Shown piece by piece: positions 18,422 to 21,099 of a stretch of 64,000 nucleotides of DNA. Each line of letters starts with the position of its first letter. Position 1 is the stretch's first letter. The position numbers and the translations under genes are program-made. Location of the stretch: contig MSGT01000058.1 in assembly GCA_001940825.1 (NCBI GenBank), positions 1-64,000 on the forward strand. Reading direction: 5' to 3'. This DNA is from Sphaerochaeta sp. Phil3. Lineage in GTDB: Bacteria > Spirochaetota > Spirochaetia > Sphaerochaetales > Sphaerochaetaceae. The notes below the pieces were generated by a model. It worked only from the letters and a program-made list of their open reading frames with translations, was not told the origin of the DNA and searched no databases.

Positions 18422-18682
18422 ATGGCCCAGACGCTGATGAATAATTCAACTAAACACTTTGGACATCGACCACATGTTTTAGTCAAACGCACCGACTTGG
18501 AAGGAGACGCACAATGTTACATATCGGAACATTCCATAGGCCTTTGTACCAATATGCAACACAGCATTTCCAAATGTGGGTTTTCATAACAAAATGTCTA
18601 AAAGGCTGTAACTCCCGGCCGTCAGGATTGTTTAGCTTCTGTCAACATCGTTTTACAAAAACGGATGGAAGGAGAGACTATC

Positions 18683-21099
18683 ATGAAGAAATGGACTACG
18701 ATCCTGCTGCTGGCTCTGCTGGCGGCTCTATGCCTTGCAGTGTCATGCAAGAACGACCCCCCCCGCACGAGCATGAGTTCGACCTGACGGCGTGGGAATA
18801 CAACGAGGACAGCCACTGGCACAAGGCCGTCTGCGAACACACGGATGAGGTCAAGGACAAGGCCGCACACACCTGGGACGATGGCACGGTGACCACGCCC
18901 GCCGCTCCGGGGAGCGCCGGTGTCATGACGTACAAATGCACCGTATGCAAACACACCAAGACCGGGCCGATCCCCGCACCGGGAGCGACGAGGTTCGCCT
19001 CGACATACACTCCGGGAAAGACCTACGACAAGACCCCCATCGAAATAGACAGAACCAAGGTCGTCAGGGTCGTTGGCGGAACGGAAGTCCCCGTCCCGCA
19101 GGAGCAGATCCTGAAAATCGAATTCAAGACCAAGGATGCGGAGGACAGTGCATACACGGCCACAGCCCCTACAATTGCGGGAAGCTACACCGTCAAGGTG
19201 ACCGTGGCGAAGACGCCCGACTGGGAGGAGGACGCCTTCACCCATGACTTCGTCATAGGCGCCATAGTGCTCGTGGGATCCTATACGCACCCCACAGAAC
19301 TTACCTACAACGGGGAAGAACAAACCCTAACGGACCTGACGCTGAAACATGGAGACCTGGGTTGCATACTCGAAGGGGATGAGGTTCGCATCACGTATAT
19401 CAAGACCAAGGGTGCGGATGCAGGGACCCCATATGTGTCGTACGCCATTCCTGGAGGGCAGAACTACCGCTCCGAATTCAACGACTCCAAGTTCGGCATC
19501 AAGGCCACGGTCAAGCCCATAGTGGTGAAGACCTCCATAAACGCAACGAAGGTGTATGACGGAAGCGCAACGATCATCCACAAGGACTGGGCGGCGGTAC
19601 CCGAGATCCTGTCAGAGGACAAGGGGAATCTAGAGCTCTCGATCGGAATGAAGGACGCGAATGTGGTCTCGGAAGGGAACGCCGTCTTCTGCAGCTTCCA
19701 ATACAGAAACAGCTCTGGCACGGCATCGCCTACAGGCAACTACGAGATCGACAAAAGCCTGCTGAAAGGCACGATAGCTCCTAAGGACGTCAGTTGCGAA
19801 TACGAACATCCATACGATGGGAAAGACATCGTAGTTGTAGAGAAGAAACACATCAAGGGAGCCGTCGAGAACGACAACGTCACGTTGAAAGTAAAGATGA
19901 GCGGCAAGGATGTCGGAGCCTCTGTGACTGATGATTTTTACTTATACGTCGATGGAAAGCCATCCGGGAACTACATCGTCAGAAAAAGCAATGTGCAGGT
20001 CAAGATTGTGGCCAAGAGGCTCATCGGAACCTTTGAGGACGTCTTCACATACAATGGCACAGACCAATTCATAGTCGAAGACCTGTCCGGATTCGAAGGG
20101 TTCGCCGAAGGGGATGACATCAAGGACTTCGTGCTTCTCGTCGTCTTCATGGGCAAGGATGCAGGTTCGGAGCTGAACTACTGCAACCTCCGGAAAAAGG
20201 GCGAAGCGATGGGCTATGATAACTACAAAATCGACCTGGAAGACATCCATTCCTCCATCGTGCCCAAGAAGCTCACCGCAAAGACAATCCCTACGAAGGT
20301 GTACGATGGAACCAACATCGTCGAGCTTCCATACGACCAGCTTGAAGGACTGATGGGCAGCGACGATCCGATCCTCTCGATAACCATGTCCGGCAAGGAT
20401 GTAGGGTCCGAATACAAAAGCCATGTGGTGAAATTCGTCAGCGGGGCGCTTGCAAGCAACTACTACGTGGCCGACGACGATCCAAACATGCTGCAGGCGA
20501 ACATCACCAAGAAGGTGCTCAAGTTTCCATCATTGAACGTCACGGCACGGCCCGATTCCGAGCGCTACGTGTACGTCCATCTTGGAAAGGCCAACCTTGA
20601 GGGATGGGACAACAAACCGGTTGGCGACGATGTCGTGAAGGTCAAGTACGAAAACAATTCCGTATCTTGGGCTCTTGGCAAATCTTTCCTCGCCGCCAGC
20701 GGAAGTGGAACCATTTCCGAAATAAGCAATGGAAATTATGATGTCCAGATACCAGCTACCGGCAGCAGGATAACGGTTATTCCAGCATCAGTAGATTGGG
20801 GGAAACTCGAAATAGGAAAAGCGAGGACATTTACTGTGAGTGACAAAACGGTCAAGTTCTATGGTTCCTTTGGAATGGAAAAAGACAGAGTCATGAAGAT
20901 AACCAATAAAGACGGAGCGGTAATGACAATGAAGAATCTCCTTACCCTAGGAGAAGCCTCTAAGAACACCATTCTCTACCAAGAGAATTTGGAAGGCAAC
21001 CAAGGAATACTCATCAAGAGTTATCCAAATGGTACCGGAGATTTCTATGTACACGGCCTTGAACCTGGTGAATACACCATCCTCCTTACGGACAATTAA
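18683..21099 (+). CDS. Lipoprotein with tandem YDG/MBG-like repeats, frameshifted at a C8 tract (phase-variable candidate)
   Basis: ATG 18683 (SD AAGGAG) encodes MKKWTTILLLALLAALCLAVSCKNDPP, which runs out of frame at C8 (18767-18774) and stops at 18785-18787. The body is open in the frame of ORF 18514-21099 with repeated YDG-type segments (KVYDGSATIIH, HPYDGKDIVV, KVYDGTNIVEL). Confidence 0.75.

Follow-up and report, generated by a model that had tools for sequence, protein, structure and literature searches.

In Treponema pallidum, the length of promoter poly-G tracts affects transcription, and the tp0126 promoter works best with 17 nt between its -35 and -10 elements (PMC7864442). An effect of promoter poly-G length on transcription is also cited there for porA of Neisseria meningitidis, where the strength of the promoter depends on a poly-G tract between -35 and -10 (as cited in PMC7864442). 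In the gut commensal Bifidobacterium breve, a G run lies between a signal ORF and the body of a pilin, with pili being produced when the length of the run is in frame (PMC9187656). A comparison of treponemes counted homopolymers of seven or more nucleotides per genome and tied some T. pedis pseudogenes to them; the sections available to us do not assign homopolymers to promoters (PMC8049484). A 2025 review names T. pallidum as one of the species whose repeat-mediated repertoire is large, and raises the question of why genomes with phase variation at multiple loci seem confined to pathogens (PMC11868660).

The gene considered here lies in the window, by which we mean the whole 64-kb stretch of DNA that was analysed. 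Its layout is like that of bbr_0113ab and bbr_1889ab of the gut bacterium B. breve UCC2003, where a Sec signal and a surface body are encoded in two ORFs around a G tract and an in-frame tract length leads to surface expression. Unlike the window gene, these loci encode sortase pilins with an LPXTG motif in an Actinomycete, and their length variation and in vivo enrichment have been measured; the accessible text describes two pilus loci and no promoter class (PMC9187656). The tp0126 and tpr genes of T. pallidum are likewise those of a spirochaete and have variable-length poly-G tracts in surface-protein gene promoters, the tp0126 tract being located between -35 and -10 as in the sister-gene promoters described below. 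However, their products are outer-membrane proteins (an OmpW homologue and Tpr) rather than HEH/YDG lipobox lipoproteins, their expression effects have been measured, and the run of the window gene is in coding sequence, not in a promoter (PMC7864442). N. meningitidis porA is a counterpart of the promoter class in our genome; it belongs to an unrelated organism and gene, its effect on transcription has been demonstrated, and it is not of the window gene's coding type (as cited in PMC7864442).

The window gene consists of the following elements.

18669-18674, + strand: Shine-Dalgarno-like AAGGAG, 8 nt upstream of the ATG at 18683 (from the sequence)
18683-18787, + strand: ORF1 (34 aa), comprising signal peptide, lipobox LAVSC, KNDPP, an out-of-frame tail and the stop
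18757-18764, + strand: C8 homopolymer, where the two frames meet
18766-21099, + strand: lipoprotein body, in a frame one base off ORF1 and open through to its stop (supported by codon log-odds)
18766-18957, + strand: N-terminal HEH...YHWH.A.CEHTD domain, common to the in-frame lipoproteins of congeners and the paralogues on contigs C36 and C66
20263-20475, + strand: top-scoring of three YDG domain (PF18657) stretches, E 1.1e-14

ORF1 translates as MKKWTTILLLALLAALCLAVSCKNDPPRTSMSST, followed by a TGA stop at 18785-18787. It has the features of a bacterial lipoprotein, namely a basic N-terminus, a hydrophobic stretch and a lipobox cysteine (MKKWTTILLLALLAALCLAVSC), as do the homologues; this assignment was made from the amino acid sequence only. 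The body begins with HEHEFDLTAWEYNEDSHWHKAVCEHTDEVKDK and continues in MBG/YDG-like repeats, remaining free of stops for ~777 codons. Its PF18657 match scores 54.8 bits against a curated Pfam cut-off of 25. The codon log-odds are +0.206 per codon in the body's own frame, compared to -0.516 and -0.374 in the two remaining forward frames, where there are 43 and 20 stops. We confirm several features of an earlier sequence-only reading of this DNA: an ATG at 18683 with a good Shine-Dalgarno sequence and a lipoprotein signal peptide plus KNDPP behind it, an ORF1 stop from 18785, a repeat body open in a different frame, and a register between signal and body that is restored by adding one C or removing two. 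The tract itself had been placed at 18767-18774 and is in fact ten bases further left. The gene thus has the C/G homopolymer of about eight or more units at the coding start that marks a translational simple-sequence contingency locus, and a change of 1-2 units joins otherwise intact coding sequence. A simple promoter scan gave no clear candidate upstream of the window gene, which is a point against the phase variation considered next.

The window gene most likely encodes a surface lipoprotein that is phase-variable by slipped-strand mispairing at the C run. Mispairing at replication would alter the number of Cs that immediately follow the lipobox. Of the three possible phases, one would allow the signal peptide to be read through into the HEH/YDG body to give a lipoprotein of ~800 residues; in the assembled 8-C phase, the product would be a 34-residue stub only. 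Slippage of the C8 tract in living cells would then affect expression, and the lipoprotein may be displayed on the surface and have an adhesin-like role. A run of eight C is short for fast switching, and this counts against a switch.

The homologues indicate where the gene is broken. A genus search with the window body as query found lipoproteins of congeners in which the signal peptide runs on into the HEH domain without a break, and residues 1-85 of eight such in-frame homologues from other species of the genus were used to build an N-terminal profile. In a search of four sequences, ORF1 matched profile positions 1-28 (E 1.3e-5) and the window body positions 25-88 (E 2.2e-19). As the two matches adjoin, the two frames of the window are one gene, broken at the tract. 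The paralogue on contig C36 is split at a run of nine C and is off-phase in the opposite sense to the window gene; its two pieces match profile positions 1-25 and 25-87, so that its break, too, is at the tract. Comparing homologues for the tract, as the earlier reading had proposed, gave a divided answer: the contig C36 paralogue has one (C9), and the in-frame congener homologues examined lack any C/G homopolymer where the signal peptide passes into the HEH domain. To judge from these sequences, conservation of the tract at this site is limited to the contig C36 paralogue, which counts against the switch reading.

The C8 tract of the window gene is the sole C/G run of eight or more in the window. 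The 2.36-Mb genome contains 32 such runs, the longest being ten; the total was counted by hand from overlapping matches, and all runs were fetched and classified. Since 32 is near the chance expectation, a C8 tract by itself is unremarkable, but the placement of the runs is remarkable. Eight are located in spacers of promoters that precede lipoprotein genes, and four within ~14 codons behind a lipobox. For the latter, a rough estimate of the chance expectation is ~0.15, allowing for up to 250 lipoproteins; the lipoprotein number of the genome is itself an estimate, as sequence was taken only around C/G runs. All four lipobox-proximal runs are out of frame: C8 in the window gene, C9 on contig C36, and G9 on contigs C33 (...LVGCKDSPNDNP-G9) and C49 (...AVACDSEVPTPESV-G9), the last two splitting their lipoproteins directly behind the lipobox. 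Both kinds of frame offset occur among the split genes. A further four coding runs, 8-9 nt in length, leave the frame intact; they are on contigs C25, C36 (its second run), C47 and C18 (in a signal peptide).

These data bear on the possibility that the gene is a decaying pseudogene, silenced for good by a fixed frameshift. The assembled window gene is indeed out of frame, and the HEH-domain paralogue on contig C66 (L055:1474-4019), which we rejected as a coding switch, is broken at GCGCG, away from any homopolymer. However, the long, stop-free body of the window gene has retained its codon bias, and the three other split lipoproteins also have long open bodies (449, at least 414 and at least 398 codons), all broken at C/G runs. 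Decay is therefore very improbable.

Alternatively, an assembly or sequencing error may conceal a true tract length that is in frame, in which case the gene would always be read through. Homopolymers are prone to such errors, and congeners have in-frame homologues. Against this, the large ORFs of the window appeared intact in the ORF list, different genes would require opposite corrections, and the four coding runs named above need no correction at all. Since offsets of both kinds occur, the split genes are not explained by one systematic miscount in the assembly. A base-calling error at the window tract alone would leave the whole set of runs unexplained, including their clustering behind lipoboxes and in promoter spacers, and we regard error as unlikely. 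More generally, neither an error nor a frameshift that is fixed at this site accounts well for the genome-wide pattern.

Several other loci came to light in this survey. An exported protein on contig C25 (L034:5131-6271) has 118 aa followed by a 263-codon open body that is off-frame at a G8 run; its start is similar to poly-G-promoter proteins in other genera (L089, L096). A protein on contig C20 has an apparent frame change at a G10 run near its 3' end. On contig C71 (L054:1431-3958), three G9 runs occur within 2.5 kb near collagen-like GxY genes, possibly in a prophage tail region. A C8 run on contig C29 was discarded as a frame switch: it is in frame within the signal peptide of a lipoprotein, and the break is caused by a 16-bp tandem duplication. 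The repeated unit there (CGGTAATGATGTTATG twice, L037:1299-1400) is either a frame switch of another repeat type or an assembly artefact. The 21-bp repeat AACTTAAATAAATAACTTACC is found at the ends of contigs C3, C25, C27, C67 and C70 and also at C32:1883-1903, often immediately upstream of genes with C/G runs, and is perhaps the terminus of a repeated mobile element. A shufflon was considered for its presence at contig ends; the end of a repeated element, where the assembly breaks, is more likely.

The promoter class comprises eight lipoprotein genes. In each, a stretch of 8-10 G (or C) is situated 19-66 nt upstream of the lipoprotein start and is flanked by a perfect -35 element (TTGACA) and a hexamer resembling a -10 element. 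The runs are distributed as follows.

Promoter-spacer runs: contig C13 (a C10 run), contig C27 (two), contig C46 (two), contig C60, contig C61, contig C68

A matching promoter on contig C70 has G7. The promoter TTGACA-ATATGCT-G7..9-TAGACT precedes the lipoproteins at L035, L036, L043, L044, L048, L050, L053 and L056 (contigs C27, C46, C60, C61, C68 and C70). Several of these promoters have a 5' leader in common, TAGACTGACGTCGTCAGTCGGGGAGA...CATGCCCCGCTGTCAAAGGGG, and in several it includes the palindrome GACTGACGTCGTCAGTC together with a CGGGG...CCCCG pair. The poly-C version on contig C13 (L031:1280-1308) reads TTGACA-GAAGCTT-C10-TAAGCT ahead of a lipoprotein; TTGACAGAAGTGCT-C10 on the reverse strand of contig C32 (L038:39-48) is similar to it. 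Spacers of the lipoprotein promoters in this genome are 15-17 nt long. With hexamers assigned by pattern only, most spacers measure 15-17 nt both in this genome and in genus g2, and most measure 18-19 nt in g11. A poly-G or poly-C tract between -35 and -10, as in porA and tp0126, is thus present in the sister genes and not in the window gene. In the eight promoters, a change in run length would shift the spacing of -35 and -10, and the window gene would be one of several such switches, with four coding-start runs and eight spacer runs (of G, once of C). Within the genus, the promoter cassette is found in 1 of 11 genomes, i.e. only in this one, a distribution that counts against the switch reading.

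The promoter class is also relevant to a further explanation, by which the 8-C gene gives rise to the complete protein through programmed ribosomal frameshifting, or through slippage of transcription, at the C run. The shift required here is -1 on a C run, which is possibly slippery. But different shifts would be required in the contig C36 paralogue and in the remaining split genes, for which one programmed shift is insufficient, and the promoters have like runs without any reading frame. We thus give recoding very little credence. Phase variation, as proposed in the sequence-only reading, draws its support from the in-frame homologues, the intact body, the similarly split genes and the class of promoter runs.

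To see how far the promoter pattern extends, we scanned the family for TTGACA-N5-15-G6-TANNNT, with the reversed pattern as control. The pattern is present in 47 of 141 genomes and in 4 of 22 genera, with up to 15 sites per genome; summed by hand, there are ~266 sites compared to 3 for the reversed pattern. An ORF follows 60 of 64 distinct sampled sites, and 51 of these 60 encode a lipobox protein. As a background, at most 12 of the window's 47 largest ORFs have a lipobox in a lenient scan. Genomes with multiple copies have a nearly constant spacer outside the run and a variable run. Among 149 pairs of near-identical cassettes from the same genome, 88 are unequal in run length; as the sites were picked from those of the family scan for having sister copies, this figure establishes that there are length differences but gives no measure of their overall frequency. 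Genome G050, for instance, has runs of 8, 9 and 11 between nearly identical flanks. Run-length variation with conserved flanks was thus seen between copies within genomes, not between strains.

A G8 version of the pattern occurs in 66 of 395 genomes of the phylum, nearly all of the same class, with one reversed match. An exact scan of all species genomes for the cassette of this genome was discarded, as its 33 matches were mostly chance-like; one of them, in Treponema sp. UBA792, could plausibly be a promoter. In the family of that species, the pattern matches 28 of 61 genomes (the places coincide with family f3). Since f3 is of the same class as the genome studied here, that genome belongs to class Spirochaetia but to a different family from UBA792. 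A lipobox protein is encoded downstream of 9 of 24 promoters for family f3, a set that includes a few sites from other families. Poly-G spacers of 13 to 17 G are seen in G460, G160 and other single-contig genomes of f3, with fewer lipoproteins downstream.

A literature search that left out most subscription papers found no report of phase variation in Sphaerochaeta, which is weak evidence. The kind of system is known; what seems to be unreported is the multi-locus repertoire in this lineage, which is uncultured and, as far as is known, presumably non-pathogenic. The class Spirochaetia, presumed non-pathogens included, probably contains a large unrecognised repertoire of phase variation: with at least a dozen poly-G-promoter lipoprotein genes in some genomes, in addition to coding-run switches, each cell may have its own surface combination. 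For uncultured spirochaetes presumed to be non-pathogenic, the candidate switches given above form a definite set that can be checked. If their tracts vary in metagenome reads, surface switching could readily be followed in a natural community, and it could be asked whether phage, host immunity, diet or competitors are the selective agent.
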